From assembly GCA_026984675.1 (NCBI GenBank), contig JALSRQ010000098.1:1-48669 (forward strand): DNA of 48,669 nt. The letters are read 5' to 3'. The notes under the pieces are model-generated. The model saw nothing but the letters and a program-made list of their open reading frames with translations. It was not told where the DNA came from and ran no database searches. Shown here piece after piece: positions 16,580 to 24,387 of the stretch; positions within the stretch are counted from its first letter, which is position 1, and every line of letters begins with the position of its first letter. Position numbers and translations under genes: made by a program. The stretch comes from Thermaceae bacterium (GTDB taxonomy: Bacteria; Deinococcota; Deinococci; Deinococcales; Marinithermaceae).

Positions 16580-17243
16580 TTACTCGTTCTCACCCAAGAA
16601 GACCCCGTGCCAGGTGTGCACCCAGACCTCGCCGGAGTAGGCGTTGACCGAGAGCATCCCCTCGATCTTCCCACGGCCGAAGTCGAAGGTGTAGTAGCCG
16701 TCGAAGGCCTGCCGTTCGAAGATGCGGCTGCCCGGGAGGTAGCCCTTTAAGAACTCCCGGGCCAGCTTCTCGGCCCCCTCGAGGTCGTAACGCGGCTGGG
16801 CCCCCAGGAAGCGGCCTTGGCCCCGCCACATCATGTTGGGGCCGGGCTCGGGGAAGACCACGCCGGAGTAACGATCCACCAGCACCTCGGCGAGGCCGCG
16901 ACCCTCCTGATCCACGATCTGGGCGTAAGTAGTTCTGGCTAAAGGCCATCACATCCTTGACCTGGGCTCCCGGGGCCACCCGGGCGGCGAAGTCGGCAAA
17001 CCGACGGCGGGCCTCGTCTTCGGAGATGGGGCGGGCGCTGGGGGGGTAGATCCCCATCATCCCGGACATCCCGGGGCCCCCCATCCCCATGCCGGGCCCA
17101 CCCATCATCCCGCCGTAGCCCGGACCGCCGTAGCCGGATCCCGGGCCGCCCATCATCCCCTGACCGAGGGCCACCGCCAACCCCAGCACCAAGACCGCTC
17201 CCGCCAAAAGCCCCGCGTTCTTCCTACCGATTCCCTTCTTCAT
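16580..17243 (-). pseudogene. Met/Gly-rich exported PepSY-like protein, broken by a one-base frameshift
   Basis: The N-terminal frame starts at ATG 17243 after GGAGGTGA, with a signal peptide (AGLLAGAVLVLGLAVALGQG). A Met/Gly/Pro-rich stretch follows with repeats like MMGGPG and GMGMGGPGM, then a domain beginning ISEDEARRRFADFAARV. Near 16927-16928 one extra T on the minus strand (TACTTACG instead of TACTACG) shifts the frame. Skipping it joins FSQNYY to AQIVDQEGRGLAEVLVD, and the other frame runs to GVFLGENE and a stop at 16580. Together the parts give a protein of about 220 residues resembling periplasmic PepSY-like proteins. Upstream it has the CTTTAC box shared by the metal island, and a strong terminator follows. 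Real mutation, sequencing error or programmed shift cannot be told apart here. Confidence 0.72.
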
Positions 17244-17260
17244 CGTTCACCTCCAAGGGT

Positions 17261-17293
17261 AGGATCGGCGCCCCGTGTAAAGTCCGCATAAAG
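17261..17293 (-). promoter_or_regulatory. CTTTAC tandem box and -10 of the Met/Gly-rich protein gene
   Basis: Minus strand: CTTTAT (17293-17288), five bases, CTTTAC (17282-17277), ten bases, GATCCT (17266-17261) as -10. The geometry is identical to the three other boxes of the island. The ribosome site and ATG follow 17 bases later. Confidence 0.65.
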
Positions 17294-17296
17294 GAA

Positions 17297-17322
17297 GCGG
17301 CCCCCGCACCTACGGGGGCCGC
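17297..17322 (-). terminator. Terminator of the DUF302-to-rhodanese operon
   Basis: GCGGCCCCCG (17297-17306), loop CACCTA, CGGGGGCCGC (17313-17322): a perfect ten-base-pair stem followed on the minus strand by TTCCTTTA. It lies 12 bases after the rhodanese stop. Confidence 0.7.
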
Positions 17323-17334
17323 GGTCGGCGGTTG

Positions 17335-17766
17335 CTAGCGCGATCGGTACGCGAGCTTCAAGCCGGCGGCCTGCCAGGCGTTCATGCCCCCGGTGAGGTC
17401 GTAGACCCGGGTGTAGCCAAGGCGCACCAGCGTCGCGGTCGCCACCCGGCTCATCGCCCCGCTCCGGCAGTAGACCACCAGCGGGCTGTCCTTGTCCTTG
17501 GGCAGCTTGGCGGCGAGCTCGGCGACGCGGTCGTAGGGGAGGAAGAGGTCGGTGCCCGGGATCTCGCCGGCGTAGGGCACGTGGACGTTGATCAACAGGA
17601 AGCCCTTCTCCTTCCGAACGAGGAGGGGCAGCAACGTCCGCACGTCGATGGGAACGACGCGGCCGCTCGTCGCGGCGGGCAGGCCCCCGTGACCGGTGTG
17701 GGCCAGCCCCGCCCCCGAAAACGCGGTCAGAAAGGCGGCCAGGGCGAAGACGGCAAGCCCCCTCAT
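17335..17766 (-). CDS. Exported rhodanese-domain protein
   Basis: A 143-residue protein with a signal peptide (MRGLAVFALAAFLTAFSGAG) and one rhodanese domain. The active-site loop is VVYCRSGAMSRVA with the catalytic Cys; IDVRTLLPLL and YDLTGGMNAWQAAG are the usual flanks. Rhodaneses carry sulfur as a persulfide; this one should act outside the cytoplasmic membrane. HTGHGG just after the signal peptide could be a weak metal site. It is the last gene of the DUF302-SHOCT-PspA operon; its ATG overlaps the pspA stop (ATGA). A link to metal or redox stress is inferred from context. Confidence 0.85.
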   Translation of the reverse strand: MRGLAVFALAAFLTAFSGAGLAHTGHGGLPAATSGRVVPIDVRTLLPLLVRKEKGFLLINVHVPYAGEIPGTDLFLPYDRVAELAAKLPKDKDSPLVVYCRSGAMSRVATATLVRLGYTRVYDLTGGMNAWQAAGLKLAYRSR

Positions 17767-18428
17767 CCTTCGACCTCCTCCCCCTTCAACCGGGCCAACT
17801 CGGCCTCGAGCGCCTCCTCCTCGCCGAGCTCGGCGAAGGCCTCCGAGAGGCCCTCCTCGGCGTCCAGGGCGGCCATCGCCTGATGCCGGTCGGCCATCGC
17901 CTCGATCCGCTCGGCCATCGCGTCGAACGCTTCGGCGGCCGGGTGGGCGTCGGTGCGGGACCTTAGCCGGCGCACCGACTCGGCGGCTTGGTAGGTTCGC
18001 CGCCTGGCCAAAAGAACCCGCTTCTTGGCCTCGGCCTCGGCGATCTTGGCCCTCAGGGCCTCGAGCTGGGTCTTGAGCCGCTCCGAGGTGACGCGCTCCT
18101 CCTTTAGCTGGCGGTCGAGCTCCTCGGCCAGGGCCTCGGCCCGACGGGCCTTCCTAAGGGCTTCCCGGGCCAGGTCGTCGCGGTCGGCCTTCACCGCCTC
18201 GCGGGCCCGCACCCGCCAGGTCTCGGCCATGGCGCGGTAGGCCCGCACCTCCCGGGCAAGCCGCGCCTCTTCAGCAAGGACGGCGGCGACCTCCTCCTTG
18301 GCCTCGCGGTAGGCCGCCTTCATGTCCAAAAGGGCCTGGTTGAGGATCTTCTCGGGGTCCTCGACCCGTGCGATCAGGTCGTTCAAGTTGGCGCGCAAAA
18401 GGCGCCCAATCCGGTCCAAAAGGGTCAT
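17763..18428 (-). CDS. pspA: PspA/IM30 (ESCRT-III-like) membrane-stress protein
   Basis: A 221-residue, almost wholly alpha-helical protein. It begins with the amphipathic helix LLDRIGRLLRANLNDLIARV and EDPEKILNQALLDM, the hallmark of PspA/Vipp1. Long charged coiled-coil helices follow (EEARLAREVRAYRAMAETW). Family members polymerise on the inner face of the cytoplasmic membrane to limit proton leak under envelope stress. Here it sits in an operon with SHOCT proteins, DUF302 and rhodanese inside a metal-resistance island, without pspF, pspB or pspC. It overlaps both neighbours by four bases. Confidence 0.9.
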   Translation of the reverse strand: MTLLDRIGRLLRANLNDLIARVEDPEKILNQALLDMKAAYREAKEEVAAVLAEEARLAREVRAYRAMAETWRVRAREAVKADRDDLAREALRKARRAEALAEELDRQLKEERVTSERLKTQLEALRAKIAEAEAKKRVLLARRRTYQAAESVRRLRSRTDAHPAAEAFDAMAERIEAMADRHQAMAALDAEEGLSEAFAELGEEEALEAELARLKGEEVEG

Positions 18429-18913
18429 CGTCCGCCTCCTTCCAAGCGGGCCACCCGGGCGGCGGCGGCCTCGGCCTCGAGGCTCGCCACCAGCGCCTCC
18501 AGCTTCAAAAGCGCCCGCTCGCTGCTCCGGAGGGCCTTCTCGGTGTTCCTAAGGGCGTCCTCCAGGGCGAGTTTCTCCTCGAACCGCTCGTGGGCTTCGA
18601 GCCCGAGCTCGTCCAGGGCGGCGGCGGTGCCCTCCTCGAGAACCGCCAGCCGGGCCTTGAGCCGGCCCCGCTCCTCCCGGAGCGAGGAAACCCGGTTCCT
18701 AAGGTTCACCAGCTCCTTCCGGGCGGCCTCGAGCTCGGAAGCGAGCCCCGGCTCGCCGGCCGGCGGGGAAACGAGCCGTCCCTTGGCGGCCAGGTAGGCC
18801 TCCCGGTCGAGCTCCCCCCGGGCGTACTGGAGGTCGATGGGGTCCCGGCGGATCGCCGGCACCCGTTCCTCCCTTTCCTCGCGATGACGACGGCTTCCGT
18901 GACCGCAACCCAT
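18425..18913 (-). CDS. SHOCT-like coiled-coil protein
   Basis: A 162-residue protein. The N-terminal 20 residues are short and charged (MGCGHGSRRHREEREER). A SHOCT-like motif follows near residues 24-48 (DLQYARGELDREAYLAAKGR), resembling the motifs of the proteins at 18916 and 24093. The rest, about residues 58-155, is a continuous coiled coil (ELEAARKELVNLRNRVSSL and onwards). No membrane helix is seen, unlike the other two SHOCT proteins. It may interact with PspA, whose gene overlaps it by four bases. GGAGGG precedes the ATG. Confidence 0.72.
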   Translation of the reverse strand: MGCGHGSRRHREEREERVPAIRRDPIDLQYARGELDREAYLAAKGRLVSPPAGEPGLASELEAARKELVNLRNRVSSLREERGRLKARLAVLEEGTAAALDELGLEAHERFEEKLALEDALRNTEKALRSSERALLKLEALVASLEAEAAAARVARLEGGGR

Positions 18914-18915
18914 GA

Positions 18916-19128
18916 TCAGCCCTCCAGGTCCTGAATCAACCGGCGGTAGGTCTCGCGGTCGATCTCGCCCCGGGCGTAGCGCTCGCGGGCGGCCTCCACC
19001 GCGCTGCGGTCGCCGTTTTGGGAGCGGCCCGAGGGACGCTCGGGCCCCCGCAAGAGGTAGCCAAAGAGCACGACCGGCACCAGCAGCAAGAGGATCATCC
19101 AGAAGAACCCAAACCCCATGAACCCCAT
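18916..19128 (-). CDS. Small membrane SHOCT-domain protein
   Basis: A 70-residue protein with one N-terminal membrane helix (FFWMILLLLVPVVLFGYLL), a polar linker and a C-terminal SHOCT motif (RERYARGEIDRETYRRL). SHOCT motifs are short helix pairs found at the ends of small membrane proteins, thought to act in oligomer formation or regulation. The ATG at 19128 overlaps the DUF302 stop by one base (TGATG); GTG 19131 is an alternative. The SHOCT part is nearly identical to that of the protein at 24093, suggesting duplication. Confidence 0.8.
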   Translation of the reverse strand: MGFMGFGFFWMILLLLVPVVLFGYLLRGPERPSGRSQNGDRSAVEAARERYARGEIDRETYRRLIQDLEG

Positions 19129-19520
19129 CACGCGAACCCCTCCAATCGTCCTATTGCCCGCTCCAGCCGTTCCCGTACCGCCCCGGCGAGCTCGGGGTCG
19201 GGCCGCTCGGTGGCCCCCGCCAGGGCCACCGCGGGATCCTGGTAAAGCACCGCCACCCGGCCCTCCCCCTCGTCCCGCACCACCAGCGCACACGGAAGCA
19301 CGACCCCCACATCGGGATGGCGCTTCAACGCCTCCTCGGCCAGGGCCGGATGGCATACTCCGAGCCGCACATAGGCCGGCATCTCGACGTTCCGCTTTTC
19401 CTTGAGCACCTGGTGAAGCGCCACCCGGGTCAAAAGACCGAACCCCTCGTCCTTGAGCGCCGCCAGGAGTCGGGTTTCGACCTCCTCGGGGATGCCCGCC
19501 AGGTAGGTTTTGTGAACCAT
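19128..19520 (-). CDS. DUF302 protein
   Basis: A 130-residue protein of the DUF302 family, recognised by EEVETRLLAALKDEGFGLLTR, the central VCHPALAEEALKRHPDVGVV and LPCALVVRD. Conserved Cys and His residues sit in VCHP and LPC. There is no signal peptide, so it is probably cytoplasmic. DUF302 proteins often lie near copper or sulfur-stress genes, but their biochemical role is not firmly known. It is the first gene of the five-gene operon, with a CTTTAC box and -10 upstream and GGAGGTGG before the ATG. Confidence 0.85.
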   Translation of the reverse strand: MVHKTYLAGIPEEVETRLLAALKDEGFGLLTRVALHQVLKEKRNVEMPAYVRLGVCHPALAEEALKRHPDVGVVLPCALVVRDEGEGRVAVLYQDPAVALAGATERPDPELAGAVRERLERAIGRLEGFA

Positions 19521-19537
19521 GTTCCACCTCCGTCCTT

Positions 19538-19570
19538 AGGAAACCGGGGTTCGGTAAAGTTCCCGTAAAG
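19538..19570 (-). promoter_or_regulatory. CTTTAC tandem box and -10 of the DUF302-to-rhodanese operon
   Basis: Minus strand: CTTTAC (19570-19565), GGGAA, CTTTAC (19559-19554), ten bases, TTTCCT (19543-19538) as -10, then 17 bases with GGAGGTGG to the ATG. Confidence 0.65.
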
Positions 19571-19574
19571 CCCC

Positions 19575-21677
19575 CTAGGCCAGCCGGACCCGACGGAGGA
19601 GCATCGCGTTGACCGCCACGATGACGGTGGAGAGGCTCATGAAGAGCGCCCCCACCGCCGGATTCAGCACGATCCCCAGGGGGTAGGCCACCCCCGCCGC
19701 CAGGGGAATCGCCACCACGTTGTAGCCGCTGGCCCAGAGAAGGTTCTGCACCATCTTGGCGTAGGTCGCCCGGGCCAACTTGAGCGCCCGGACCACGTCG
19801 AGGGGGTCGTTCTCGACGAGGACCAGGTCCGCCGACTCGATGGCCACGTGGGTGCCGGCCCCGATCGCGATCCCAAGGTCGGCCTCGACCAGGGCGGGGG
19901 CGTCGTTGATGCCGTCGCCCACGAAGGCCACCCGCCCGCGCCCGGCCAACTCCCGCTTGAGCTCGGCGACGATCCTCGCCTTATCGGCGGGGAGCACGCG
20001 GGCGAAGTACCGGCGGATGCCGAGCTCGGGGGCCACCGTGCGGGCCACCGCCTCGGCGTCCCCGGTCACCATCACCGGCTCGATCCCCATGGCGAGCAGC
20101 CGGCGCACCGCGGCCCGGGCGCTCTCCCGCACCCGGTCGGCCAGCGAGAGGAGGCCCAAGACGCGCCCTTCCTCGAAGAGCAAAACGGCGCTCTCTCCCC
20201 GGGACTCCGTCTCCTTGAGGGCCGATGCCAGCTCCCCCGGCTCCAGCCCGAAATCGGCAAGCCACTCGGGACGGCCCAGGTAGATCCGCCGGTCCTCGAC
20301 CTCGCCGACCACGCCCTGGCCCGGAACCGCCCTGGCCTCCTTGACCTCGGGAAGCTCAAGCCCTCGTTCGCGGGCGGCCTCGACGATCGCCTCGGCCAGG
20401 GGGTGGCTGCTGGCGGCCTCGAGGGCGGCCGCCAAGCGGAGCACTTCCTCTTCCGAAAGCCCGGCACCGACCACCCGGCGCACCGCGAACCGCCCCTCGG
20501 TCAGGGTTCCGGTCTTGTCGAAGGCCACCGCCCGCACGTTCCAGGCCCGTTCAAAGGCCTCCCGGTTCCGGACCAGAATGCCGTTTCGGGCCGCGATCGC
20601 GGTGGCGTTGGTGGTCACCAGGGGAATGGCAAGCCCCAGGGCGTGGGGGCAGGCGATCACCAGGGTGGTCACCGCCAGCGCCAAGGCAAAGTTGAACCCC
20701 TGGCCGAGCGCCAGCCAGACCCCAAAGGCCATCGTCCCCGCCGCCACCGCCACGAAAAACAGCCAGCCGGCGGCGCGGTCGGCCAGGGCCTGGAACCGGC
20801 TCCGGGCCGCCTGGGCCTCCTTCACCAGCCGCACGATCTGGGAAAGCGTGGTGGCCTCGCCGGTGCGAAGCACCCGGACCTTGAGCACCCCCTCGTGGTT
20901 GATCGAACCGGCCACCACCTCGTCGCCCGGCTTCTTGGTCACCGGCTTGGACTCGCCGGTGAGAAAAGCCTCGTTTACGCTGCTGGTCCCCTCGACCACC
21001 TCGCCGTCAGCGGGGACCTGCTCCCCGGGCAGCACCAGGATGAGGTCGCCCTCCTTGAGTTCGCTGGCCGGCACGTCCTTGGCCTCGCCGTTTTCCAGGC
21101 GATGGGCCACCCGGGGCAAAAGCTCGGCCAGGGCCTCCAGGGCCCGGCCGGCCTGCTGCACGCTGGTCATCTCCAGCCAGTGGCCCAGGAGCATCACGTC
21201 GATCAGGGTGGCGAGCTCCCAGTAAAAGGGCCGCCCCGGGAACCCCAACGAGACCGCCAGGCTGTAGAGGTAGGCCACCGAGATCGCCAGCGCGATCAGG
21301 CTCATCATCCCGGGCCGGCGGATCCGGAACTCACGAAGGGCGCCCACCAGGAAGGGCTTGCCCCCATAGAAGTAGAGCACCGTGCCCAGCACCGGCCCCA
21401 CCCACGCGGTCCCGGGGGCCTGGTAGGCGCGGTAGCCGAGCCAGGACTGGAGCTGGGTGGAGAAGTAAAGGACGGGAACGGTGAGCAAAACGCTCACCCA
21501 AAACCGACGCAAGAAGTCCTTGGGGTCGTGGCCCTCGTGCTTATCGTGGCCCTCGTGACCCCCGTGACCTCCATGGCCCTCGTGACCCCGGTGGCCCGAA
21601 TCCTGCCCCGAAGGAGGATGCGGTGGGTGGGTGGCTCCTTCCATGCCGTGCCGGTGGTGTTCGTGTTCGTTTTTCAT
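19575..21677 (-). CDS. copB: CopB-type P1B heavy-metal ATPase (CPH motif, His-rich N-terminus)
   Basis: A 700-residue P-type ATPase expected to pump copper (or silver) out of the cytoplasm. The first 52 residues are very rich in His and Gly (for example GHEGHGGHGGHEGH), a cytosolic metal-binding tail; no CxxC metal-binding domain is present. The transport motif is C343-P344-H345, which marks the CopB subgroup (P1B-3), rather than the CPC of CopA. The catalytic Asp is D387 in DKTGTLTEG. TGES and GDGINDAP are intact, and about eight membrane helices are seen. It is three bases downstream of the DUF3105 gene in an operon led by a CTTTAC box. Confidence 0.93.
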   Translation of the reverse strand: MKNEHEHHRHGMEGATHPPHPPSGQDSGHRGHEGHGGHGGHEGHDKHEGHDPKDFLRRFWVSVLLTVPVLYFSTQLQSWLGYRAYQAPGTAWVGPVLGTVLYFYGGKPFLVGALREFRIRRPGMMSLIALAISVAYLYSLAVSLGFPGRPFYWELATLIDVMLLGHWLEMTSVQQAGRALEALAELLPRVAHRLENGEAKDVPASELKEGDLILVLPGEQVPADGEVVEGTSSVNEAFLTGESKPVTKKPGDEVVAGSINHEGVLKVRVLRTGEATTLSQIVRLVKEAQAARSRFQALADRAAGWLFFVAVAAGTMAFGVWLALGQGFNFALALAVTTLVIACPHALGLAIPLVTTNATAIAARNGILVRNREAFERAWNVRAVAFDKTGTLTEGRFAVRRVVGAGLSEEEVLRLAAALEAASSHPLAEAIVEAARERGLELPEVKEARAVPGQGVVGEVEDRRIYLGRPEWLADFGLEPGELASALKETESRGESAVLLFEEGRVLGLLSLADRVRESARAAVRRLLAMGIEPVMVTGDAEAVARTVAPELGIRRYFARVLPADKARIVAELKRELAGRGRVAFVGDGINDAPALVEADLGIAIGAGTHVAIESADLVLVENDPLDVVRALKLARATYAKMVQNLLWASGYNVVAIPLAAGVAYPLGIVLNPAVGALFMSLSTVIVAVNAMLLRRVRLA

Positions 21678-21680
21678 CGC

Positions 21681-22286
21681 TTACCTCACCTTCCGTTCGG
21701 GGCCGCGCCCCCGGAAACGATCGATGAACGCGGCCGCCAGCTCGGCGTCGAAGGGCGCCAGGTCGAGCCGCTGTCCCCAGGCGGTCAGCACCACCTTGGA
21801 ACCCAGCCCGGCCAGCGGCACCGCCACGACTCCCTGGAAAGGAACCTCGAAAAGCCGCGCCCAGCGCTTGAGGGTGGCGATCGCCCGGGGGCCCGGACGG
21901 TCGTAGTAGACCACCACCTCGCCGTGCTCCAGGCTATGGACCAGCTGGGTAAAGGAGGGACGCTCGCGGTAGAAGCCGGGACCTACGTCGAGGGGGCTGT
22001 GGGGCCCCGAGGTCGGGGGGAGGGAGGCGTAGCGGATCTCCCTTCCCAGCGGGAGGTGGCTTCGGTCGGTGAGGGCGGGTGCCTCGGTGTCGGGCAGGCG
22101 GGGCGCCCCGGCCCGGGCGAGCGCCTGGAAGGCCGACGCCTCGCCGCCGGTGCGGACCTTCCAAAGACCGTAGCCGCCGAGGAGCGCCAGGGCCAAAATC
22201 CAGGGAAGGTAGCGCCGGGGGGCCGGGGCCCTCCCGGCGCCCCGGTTCGGAAAACCGCGGGTGCGGGGATCGGGTTTCGGACGCAT
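21681..22286 (-). CDS. DUF3105 membrane-anchored protein
   Basis: A 201-residue protein. A basic, Pro/Arg-rich N-terminus is followed by one membrane helix (YLPWILALALLGGYGLW). The extracytoplasmic DUF3105 domain contains YASLPPTSGPHSPLDVG and LVHSLEHGEVVVYYD. The conserved His residues in these two segments could bind a metal. Function is unknown. It leads the operon with the CopB ATPase, three bases downstream, so a role in handling exported metal is plausible. The ATG is six bases after the TAGCCT -10 box, making this the one leaderless unit of the island. Confidence 0.82.
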   Translation of the reverse strand: MRPKPDPRTRGFPNRGAGRAPAPRRYLPWILALALLGGYGLWKVRTGGEASAFQALARAGAPRLPDTEAPALTDRSHLPLGREIRYASLPPTSGPHSPLDVGPGFYRERPSFTQLVHSLEHGEVVVYYDRPGPRAIATLKRWARLFEVPFQGVVAVPLAGLGSKVVLTAWGQRLDLAPFDAELAAAFIDRFRGRGPERKVR

Positions 22287-22292
22287 GCCGCC

Positions 22293-22325
22293 AGGCTAGA
22301 GGCGGCCTGTAAAGCTCAGGTAAAG
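22293..22325 (-). promoter_or_regulatory. CTTTAC tandem box and -10 of the DUF3105-copB operon
   Basis: Minus strand: CTTTAC (22325-22320), CTGAG, CTTTAC (22314-22309), ten bases, TAGCCT (22298-22293) as -10, six bases to ATG 22286. The distal repeat overlaps the last codons of the kinase gene. Confidence 0.7.
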
Positions 22326-23425
22326 CCCACCGCCGGCAGGGTGAAGCAGAAGGTGGCCCCGGGGCCTTCGGCCTCCTCCAGCCAGAGCCGGCCGCCCATC
22401 GCCTCGACCAAGCCGCGGGCGATGGTGAGCCCGACCCCGCTCCCGCCGGCGCGCCCCCGGGCGGCGTCGCCGCGGAAGAAGCGTTCGAAGATGCGGTCCC
22501 GGATGGCCTCGGGCACGCCAGGGCCGGTGTCGCTCACGCAAAACCGCACCGCCCCGTCCCGGAGCGCCAAGGCCAACCGCACCCGCCCCCCCTCGGGGGT
22601 AAAGCGCAGGGCGTTGGCCAGGAGATTCGCGAGCACCTGCGCTACCCGCTCGGCGTCGGCCCGCACCGGGGGAAGGGGGTCGGGGGGGAGGACGAGGGAA
22701 AGTTCGACCCCCTTTTCCTGGAAGGCGGGGGCGAACCGTTCGACCGCCCGCCGGGCCAGGGACTCGGGCTCGTAGGCGGCCAGGTCGAGGGGGACCGTCC
22801 CCACCTCGACCCGGGAGACCCGGGCCAGGTCCTCGACCAGGCGGGCCATCGCCTTGACCTCGCGCCCGATCTTGGCGGCGGCCTCGTCCGGCGGCATCAC
22901 CCCGTCGGCCATGGCCTCGGCGTACCCCTGGAGGGCGGCCAGCGGGGTCCTGAGCTCGTGGGCCACGTTGCCGATCAGCTCGGCCCGGGTCTGCTCGATC
23001 CGGGCCAACGCCTCGGCCAGCCGGTTGAAGTGCACCGCCAGCTCGGAGAGCTCGTCGTTCCCCAAAACCGGCAACCGCACCCGGTAGTTCCCGGCCGCCA
23101 CCTTGCGGCTCGCCTCGGCGAGCATCTCGGCGGTGCGGGTGAACTTACGGCTGGTGAAGAAGGCGATCACCCCGGAGACCCCGAGGGCCAGCGGCAGCGA
23201 GGCCAGAAAGGCCGAGTTCAAGGTGGAGTAGAGGCTCCTCTGCAGGTCCTCCTTGAGGGCCTCGGCCATGACCCCGCCCCCCATCATCGAGACCATGTGA
23301 ACCATCCGGGCGACGTGGCCCTGGAAGAACCGGGGGGCGAAGCTCTCGACCAGGACCACCACCAACAGCTCGGCGAAGAAGACGACCAGCAGGTAGCTGA
23401 AGAAGAGCTTGAGGAAAAGCCTCAC
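22316..23425 (-). CDS. Sensor histidine kinase with Met/His-rich sensor loop
   Basis: A 369-residue HisKA kinase from GTG 23425. A first membrane helix (LFFSYLLVVFFAELLVVVLV) and a second (SLPLALGVSGVIAFF) flank an outside loop of about 45 residues containing HVARMVHMVSMMGGGVM. This density of Met and His suggests sensing of a soft metal such as Cu(I) or Ag(I). A HAMP domain follows, then the phosphorylation site NVAHELRTPLAAL with H156. The ATPase domain has the N box NLLANALRFTPEGG, SDTGPGVP and GGSGVGLTIARGL. Its start overlaps the regulator stop by four bases. The metal is inferred from the loop and from the neighbouring CopB pump. Confidence 0.9.
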   Translation of the reverse strand: MRLFLKLFFSYLLVVFFAELLVVVLVESFAPRFFQGHVARMVHMVSMMGGGVMAEALKEDLQRSLYSTLNSAFLASLPLALGVSGVIAFFTSRKFTRTAEMLAEASRKVAAGNYRVRLPVLGNDELSELAVHFNRLAEALARIEQTRAELIGNVAHELRTPLAALQGYAEAMADGVMPPDEAAAKIGREVKAMARLVEDLARVSRVEVGTVPLDLAAYEPESLARRAVERFAPAFQEKGVELSLVLPPDPLPPVRADAERVAQVLANLLANALRFTPEGGRVRLALALRDGAVRFCVSDTGPGVPEAIRDRIFERFFRGDAARGRAGGSGVGLTIARGLVEAMGGRLWLEEAEGPGATFCFTLPAVGFT

Positions 23426-24093
23426 GAGGCGTCCCCCAAAAAGCGGTAGCCGACCCCCCGCACGGTCTCGATGAAGCGGGGGTGCTCGGGGTCGTCGCCG
23501 AGCTTTTTGCGCAGGGCGGCGACGTGGACGTCGACCACCCGGTCGACCCCGTAGAAGTCGCCGCCCCAAACCCGGTCCAAAAGGCGCTCCCGGCTGTAGA
23601 CCAGGCCGGGGTGCTGGGCCAGGGTGAGGAGGAGGTCGAACTCGAGCTTGGAAAGCGCCATGGGACGGCCCTCGAGGAAGACCTTCCGCTCCTGGGGCCG
23701 GATCTCCAGGGGGCCGTAGACCAGCCGGTCGCGGTGGCCGAAGCGGCGGAGCAGGGCCCGCACCCGGGCCACCACCTCCCGGGGGGAAAACGGCTTGGTC
23801 ACGTAGTCGTCGGCCCCGAGCTCGAAGCCCTTGACCCGCTCCTCCTCCTCGCCGCGGGCGGTGAGCATCAGGATCGGCACCTCGCTCCCGGCCTCCCGGA
23901 GCCGCCGGGCCACCTGCCAGCCGTCGAGCTCCGGCAGCATCAGGTCGAGCACCACCAGGTCGGCCTCGCCGGCCTTTTCCAGGGCCTCGGCCCCGGTGGC
24001 GGCCTCGAGGACCCGGTGCCCCTCCCGCCTGAGGTAGGCCCCGAGGATCTCCCGGATCGCCGGGTCGTCGTCGACCAGGAGAACGCTCGCCAT
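23422..24093 (-). CDS. OmpR-family response regulator
   Basis: A 223-residue regulator. The receiver domain (residues 1-118) has the acidic pocket DDD (8-10), the phosphorylated D50 in VVLDLMLPELDG, and the conserved Lys in TKPFSP. The winged-helix DNA-binding domain shows LSKLEFDLLLTLAQHPG, VVDVHVAALRKKLGDD and the C-terminal hairpin FIETVRGVGYRF. Such regulators bind tandem repeats with an 11-base period. The four CTTTAC boxes in this island, including the one before its own operon, are its probable targets. The ATG overlaps the SHOCT stop by one base (TGATG). Confidence 0.93.
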   Translation of the reverse strand: MASVLLVDDDPAIREILGAYLRREGHRVLEAATGAEALEKAGEADLVVLDLMLPELDGWQVARRLREAGSEVPILMLTARGEEEERVKGFELGADDYVTKPFSPREVVARVRALLRRFGHRDRLVYGPLEIRPQERKVFLEGRPMALSKLEFDLLLTLAQHPGLVYSRERLLDRVWGGDFYGVDRVVDVHVAALRKKLGDDPEHPRFIETVRGVGYRFLGDAS

Positions 24094-24332
24094 CAGCCTC
24101 CCAGATCCCGTTTCATTCGCTCGAAGGTCTCCTTATCGATCTCGCCCCGAGCATACCGCTCCCTGAGGATCGAGAGCGCCCGGTCGGTTCCGTCCCGCTC
24201 GGGCCCCCTCGGCGGCGGACTCACCGCCCGGAAAAGGGCGTAGATCGCCCACGCGATCAGGAGGAACCAGAGCAACCCGAAGACCCATCCGCCGATCCCG
24301 TATCCGTAGCCGCACCAAGGGCAACCCCACAT
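24093..24332 (-). CDS. Small membrane SHOCT-domain protein, first gene of the two-component operon
   Basis: A 79-residue protein. Its first residues are MWGCPWCGYGYGIGG, a possible CxxC metal or redox site outside the membrane. One membrane helix (WVFGLLWFLLIAWAIYALF), a charged linker and a SHOCT motif (RERYARGEIDKETFERM) follow. Starting the regulator-kinase operon, it may help the kinase sense its signal, but this is inference. GGAGGTGG precedes the ATG; the leader is about 16 bases, fed by the CTTTAC box at 24355-24387. Confidence 0.8.
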   Translation of the reverse strand: MWGCPWCGYGYGIGGWVFGLLWFLLIAWAIYALFRAVSPPPRGPERDGTDRALSILRERYARGEIDKETFERMKRDLGG

Positions 24333-24354: not shown

Positions 24355-24387
24355 AGCCTGATCGGGCTCGGTAAAGCTTGGGTAAAG
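24355..24387 (-). promoter_or_regulatory. CTTTAC tandem box and -10 of the SHOCT-regulator-kinase operon
   Basis: Minus strand: CTTTAC (24387-24382), CCAAG, CTTTAC (24376-24371), ten bases, CAGGCT (24360-24355) as -10, then 22 bases to ATG 24332. This implies that the two-component system controls itself. Confidence 0.68.

Follow-up and report, generated by a model that had tools for sequence, protein, structure and literature searches.

A PspA-containing operon as a probable unit of a copper two-component regulon in a Thermaceae bacterium

What signal unites a DUF302 protein, a SHOCT-like protein, a coiled-coil protein, PspA and an exported rhodanese in a single operon? The question arises from a 48,669-nucleotide stretch of a Thermaceae bacterium genome (GenBank assembly GCA_026984675.1, contig JALSRQ010000098.1; hereafter the window), in which five open reading frames lie tightly coupled on the minus strand at 17335-19520. 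All five were confirmed at these coordinates. The initial annotation described genes that overlap or nearly touch, and the junctions indeed consist of overlaps of 1 or 4 bases plus one 2-base gap. Our analyses indicate that these genes are quite probably one of four transcription units of a CopRS-like copper two-component regulon that recruited PspA for membrane protection. They form one arm of a 7.7-kb locus (16580-24332) with the gene order SHOCT, response regulator (RR), histidine kinase (HK), DUF3105, CopB, DUF302, 70-aa SHOCT-like protein, 162-aa coiled-coil protein, PspA, rhodanese and PepSY-like protein.

The operator and its two-component system

The shared CTTTAC promoter proposed for the operon does exist, but it is really a tandem element, CTTTAC-N5-CTTTAC, and one of four. 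The half-site belongs to an operator of the form CTTTAY-N5-CTTTAY, a direct repeat with an 11-bp period. A genome-wide pattern search found exactly four sites in the 2.08-Mb genome, all inside the locus, compared with about 0.02 expected from base composition; the reversed control pattern gave none. When exact CTTTAC pairs were scanned genome-wide at spacings of 1-25, only spacing 5 was found. Four operators clustered in this way are not chance. The genome-wide counts are the unbiased evidence here, as one set of 20 regions was picked by eye. The genome is a draft (93% complete), so that further operators or a second PspA may have been missed.

At most sites, the second half-site is followed about 15-20 bases on by a short A/T-containing stretch and then by a ribosome-binding site, a layout that would be expected for an activator bound over the -35 region. 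All genome-wide operator matches likewise fall inside the locus in the sister genome G001 (4/4) and in the Oceanithermus genomes G007 and G009 (3/3 each). The operator at the 3' end of the HK gene recurs in G001, and also in Thermus, where it stands ahead of CueP. One further genome (G026; L135, 3934-3983) carries a tandem array of five CTTTAC units with a spacing of 11 bp.

The HK and the OmpR-family RR adjoin copper effectors, and the specific operator is common to the RR/HK unit and the effector units. The sequence directly shows the gene content and order, the operators, their restriction to the locus and their conservation alongside copper genes, and at this level regulon membership of the five-gene operon is well supported. 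Control by a metal, as the initial annotation proposed, is also well supported at this level and can be narrowed to copper, because the operator is common to the copper ATPase, to RR/HK and, in relatives, to CueP and a multicopper oxidase; induction itself would be expected from this arrangement. CopB passes the copper ATPase model and has a His-rich N-terminus and a CPH motif, read as ACPHALG. The loci of relatives carry CueP (PF21172, 103.9 bits) together with the multicopper oxidase. The periplasmic loop of the HK is short and His/Met-rich, with His and Met conserved in most Thermaceae members of the alignment, a composition that seems fitting for copper sensing.

Likeness to CopRS/CusRS-type regulons lies in the HK and OmpR-type RR beside a copper ATPase, in the repeated operator ahead of each unit and, in relatives of the window locus, in CueP and the multicopper oxidase. 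Unlike those systems, the window operator is an 11-bp-period direct repeat, and the RR fails the curated copper/silver models TIGR01387 (cztR_silR_copR; 169.5 versus 279.2) and NF007346 (141.9 versus 420). To our knowledge, PspA, the coiled-coil protein, SHOCT proteins, DUF302 and PepSY are not targets in described copper regulons.

The best NCBIfam models for the RR are PhoB/MtrA, all below cut-off. This preference over copper models would suit an HK/RR pair acting as a Lia/Psp-type envelope-stress sensor, in which PspA would respond to membrane damage of any cause and copper efflux would be just one part of the response. We consider this unlikely, as the orthologous HK/RR locus of Thermus holds CueP and a multicopper oxidase without PspA, the HK loop is short and His/Met-rich, and no PspC, LiaI or Toastrack partner was found among the locus proteins scanned.

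Conservation of the module and an older copper regulon

Four other genomes of the window's genus (G001, G004, G005 and G006) share the order DUF302-SHOCT-coiled coil-PspA-rhodanese, as do, with one insertion (a DOMON protein ahead of PspA), three Oceanithermus genomes, whose loci hold CueP and a multicopper oxidase between HK and DUF3105. O. profundus is among these holders of a PspA-containing locus (G009 is strain 506T, with a chromosome of 2,303,940 bp; PMC3111992). In G015, which belongs to another family, the order is DUF302-SHOCT-PepSY-coiled coil-PspA-rhodanese, and an operator stands directly ahead of the coiled-coil gene. The gene-order survey of Deinococcota suggested by the initial annotation therefore found the neighbourhood kept outside the window genome. 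The coiled-coil family is present in 9 of 111 Deinococcota genomes, beside PspA every time.

Two of these regions continue into other genes. In Oceanithermus (L096, 10800-20000), DUF5666-like, YceI-like and multihaem cytochrome-like genes extend the locus, along with a second RR/HK pair, a second metal ATPase and a PepSY gene that has an operator to itself. In G015 (L099, 5672-14267), genes for a YncE-like propeller, a MerR regulator, TauE and a MerA-like reductase come after the module, together with a MerE-like gene; the region is possibly a multi-metal island.

The closest relatives of the HK in Thermus lie in loci with SHOCT, RR, CueP, SHOCT, PepSY, DUF302, multicopper oxidase and copper ATPase genes (the genus labels Thermus, Meiothermus-like and Marinithermus are our own assignment for the compared genomes). 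There the operator takes the form CTTTAY-N5-CTTAAY; 28 of its 30 genome-wide matches in nine Thermus genomes belong to the orthologous HK/RR locus, and the reversed pattern, used as control, had no match. These loci resemble that of the window in the orthologous HK/RR, the related operator (CTTTAC-N5-CTTAAC) and the DUF302, SHOCT and PepSY genes, but lack PspA, the coiled-coil protein and the exported rhodanese. In several Thermus genomes (L148, 5845 and 5865; L146, L152 and L154), two operators face away from each other ahead of SHOCT-PepSY-DUF302, suggesting divergent control. A third operator form with a changed second half-site, CTTTAC-N5-CTGAAY, occurs six times in the copper island of the Deinococcus wulumuqiensis plasmid pDrdI (L166, 3658-9685), among CueP, DUF305, rhodanese and copper-binding genes.

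From these loci we regard DUF302, SHOCT, PepSY and CueP as the core members, and PspA and the coiled-coil protein as an addition. The five genes thus do not make up a self-standing module, DUF302 and SHOCT being part of an older copper regulon that is PspA-free in Thermus. From gene content, the window's genus, Oceanithermus and one genome of another family appear to have gained PspA and the coiled-coil protein, along with the rhodanese.

This addition could also be read as a relocated housekeeping gene, the ancestral dxs-linked PspA having been lost and the new copy having no copper-specific function. The window genome (G000) gave a single PspA match, Oceanithermus likewise has only its module copy, and the copies of Thermus, Meiothermus-like genomes and Marinithermus lie near dxs, without an operator at the dxs-linked PspA of Thermus. 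We find this explanation improbable. Two genera share the arrangement, along with a dedicated, co-occurring coiled-coil gene, it would be surprising for a sole essential PspA to stand only behind a stress operator, and G015 holds a PspA next to dxs plus a second one in the module behind its own operator. Phylogenetic analysis of PspA placed the module copies of the window's genus and Oceanithermus in one group (97/94). The G015 module copy lies near Thermaceae PspA and apart from the dxs-linked copy of the same genome, with moderate support and one long branch, a placement that suggests acquisition by transfer.

Beyond this phylum, the neighbourhoods of 60 further PspA loci contained no DUF302, SHOCT, rhodanese or coiled-coil relative (E 0.01), and one CopB-like match only. 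Carriage of the module on plasmids was rejected, as neither the coiled-coil protein nor PspA had a relative in PLSDB plasmids at the limits used.

Proteins of the locus

The features of the locus are collected in Table 1.

Table 1 Operators and genes of the 7.7-kb locus in the window.
Feature	Position	Strand	Remarks
Operator 1, CTTTACCCAAGCTTTAC	24371-24387	-	Ahead of SHOCT-RR-HK genes
79-aa SHOCT protein	24093-24332	-	PF09851, 38.3 bits, above cut-off; conserved first gene of the locus
OmpR/PhoB-type response regulator	23422-24093	-	PF00072 and PF00486
Sensor histidine kinase	22316-23425	-	PF02518, PF00512 and PF00672
Operator 2, CTTTACCTGAGCTTTAC	22309-22325	-	Overlaps HK stop codon; ahead of DUF3105-CopB
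DUF3105 protein	21681-22286	-	PF11303, 83 bits
Copper-translocating P-type ATPase, CopB type	19575-21677	-	TIGR01511, 600.7 bits (cut-off 397)
Operator 3, CTTTACGGGAACTTTAC	19554-19570	-	Ahead of the five-gene operon
DUF302 protein	19128-19520	-	PF03625, 58.9 bits
70-aa SHOCT-like protein	18916-19128	-	PF09851, 23.8 bits (Pfam cut-off 27)
162-aa coiled-coil protein, unnamed family	18425-18913	-	AlphaFold model, pLDDT 81
PspA	17763-18428	-	PF04012, 153.5 bits
Rhodanese	17335-17766	-	PF00581, 47.8 bits; N-terminal signal or membrane segment
Operator 4, CTTTATGCGGACTTTAC	17277-17293	-	Ahead of the PepSY-like gene
Exported PepSY-like protein	16580-17243	-	Gly/Met-rich N-terminus; frame broken

DUF302, PspA and the rhodanese all exceed their Pfam cut-offs, and PspA matches Vipp1/PspA chains in the PDB (E 2.8e-29 and weaker). 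Two SHOCT proteins had been assigned to the operon, but the 70-aa protein, which has a single hydrophobic segment by hydropathy, falls just short of the Pfam cut-off, and for the 162-aa protein there was neither a SHOCT match nor any meaningful Pfam match. The clear SHOCT protein, with a single hydrophobic segment and CPWC at its N-terminus, lies outside the span first noted. The 162-aa protein has an MGC N-terminus, and its model shows two short helices ahead of a long helical hairpin. Kinship of this protein to PspA, as a paralogue, or to ESCRT-III was considered and rejected as unproven: the best Foldseek match had E 0.085, and Vipp1 and Snf7 chains had E 0.14 and above. The fold likeness is thus not significant, and long helical hairpins match many coiled coils.

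The DUF302 protein matches the structure of a Thermus homologue, TT1751 (PDB 1j3m, E 1.9e-21), and its C56 and C77 are conserved in every aligned relative. The rhodanese has a hydrophobic N-terminus and keeps its active-site cysteine, the single Cys100, within CRSGAMS. Its close relatives stand in islands of copper genes on Deinococcus and Rubrobacter plasmids, and the G025 copy lies directly at an operator, adjoining HK/RR and a multicopper oxidase, so that the subfamily appears from its neighbourhoods to be a copper-island gene more widely. A thiol-repair role of the module, as initially proposed, is supported only indirectly. Compared with the intact G001 gene, the PepSY-like gene has an additional base near 16927 that breaks it in two, owing to a sequencing or assembly error or to a recent frameshift. 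An intact relative gives a weak PepSY match and a best fold match to YpeB (E 3.3e-4), and the protein model consists of two helix-plus-three-strand units.

The active-site cysteine of the rhodanese, together with relatives near TlpA-like and TauE genes, might point to a DUF302-rhodanese module mainly for sulfur or persulfide stress with copper genes as mere neighbours, but this is very unlikely, since four operators tie the operon to copper genes and the Thermus sulfur-oxidation regulator TTHA1953 belongs to the unrelated CsoR family (PMC10318464). A sulfur regulon was rejected, the same Thermus paper mentioning neither DUF302 nor PspA (PMC10318464).

Among Psp/Lia systems, the window locus is alike in having a PspA homologue in an operon under stress-type control. 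The E. coli pspABCDE operon ends with an exported rhodanese, PspE, and the window operon also ends in an exported rhodanese. Unlike PspE, the window protein scores far below the cut-off of the PspE model (NF007627; 24.2 bits, cut-off 102). The locus further differs in lacking PspF, PspB, PspC, LiaI/F and Toastrack; no such Pfam match was found among the locus proteins scanned, in agreement with the initial annotation, which had reported no pspF, pspB or pspC. Known PSP contexts include SHOCT-like partners and two-component systems (PMC11237479), and the main text of that survey mentions neither copper nor Deinococcota.

A proposed copper response

Several points weigh against a copper regulon that recruited PspA. 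The case for copper as the signal draws on neighbouring genes, and the window genome has no multicopper oxidase, nor was CueP seen in the window locus. The link between PspA and copper is not universal, because in Thermus and Marinithermus PspA lies apart from the copper genes. PspA activity is assumed here from its family, because no PSP signalling partner is present, and the coiled-coil protein has no significant homology to PspA (hhalign probability 10.6).

With these points in mind, we infer that the RR binds the operator, that copper is the signal and that the effect is activation rather than repression. The HK would sense excess copper through its His/Met-rich periplasmic loop and phosphorylate the RR, which would then bind CTTTAC-N5-CTTTAC; the 11-bp period would suit an OmpR-type dimer, with the second half-site at the position of the -35 box. 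In this way the RR would activate the operon that encodes it as well as CopB, the PspA operon and the PepSY gene. Copper would be exported by CopB, and DUF302, with its two invariant cysteines, and the PepSY protein may handle copper or copper-damaged thiols. PspA, in a putative partnership with the membrane-anchored SHOCT-like protein and with the coiled-coil protein, would stabilise the inner membrane against copper damage, while the exported rhodanese may protect or repair sulfur chemistry outside the cytoplasm.

More tentatively, a dedicated repair complex under the copper two-component switch could respond to copper damage of the inner membrane, the lineage-specific SHOCT/coiled-coil protein nucleating or steering PspA polymers at copper-exporting membrane sites; this would be a PSP-type system triggered by a metal ion rather than by membrane stress. 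The usual view is that membrane stress itself triggers repair by PspA and ESCRT-III-like proteins. As the initial annotation supposed, we found no published description of such a system, and no paper on the operator or on PspA in a copper regulon, in the open-access literature; a Synechocystis copper transcriptome paper does not mention vipp1 or PspA.

If PspA is indeed under a dedicated copper operator, these bacteria would anticipate membrane damage by sensing the metal, and the wiring would tie copper toxicity to membrane repair, in a way open to testing, in these heat-loving relatives of Thermus. Whether the lethal target of copper is the membrane or iron-sulfur enzymes could then be tested in an organism whose regulon is small and sharply marked. 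The operator may also serve as a tool to chart copper regulons, and DUF302, SHOCT, PepSY and DUF3105 genes, across Deinococcota.
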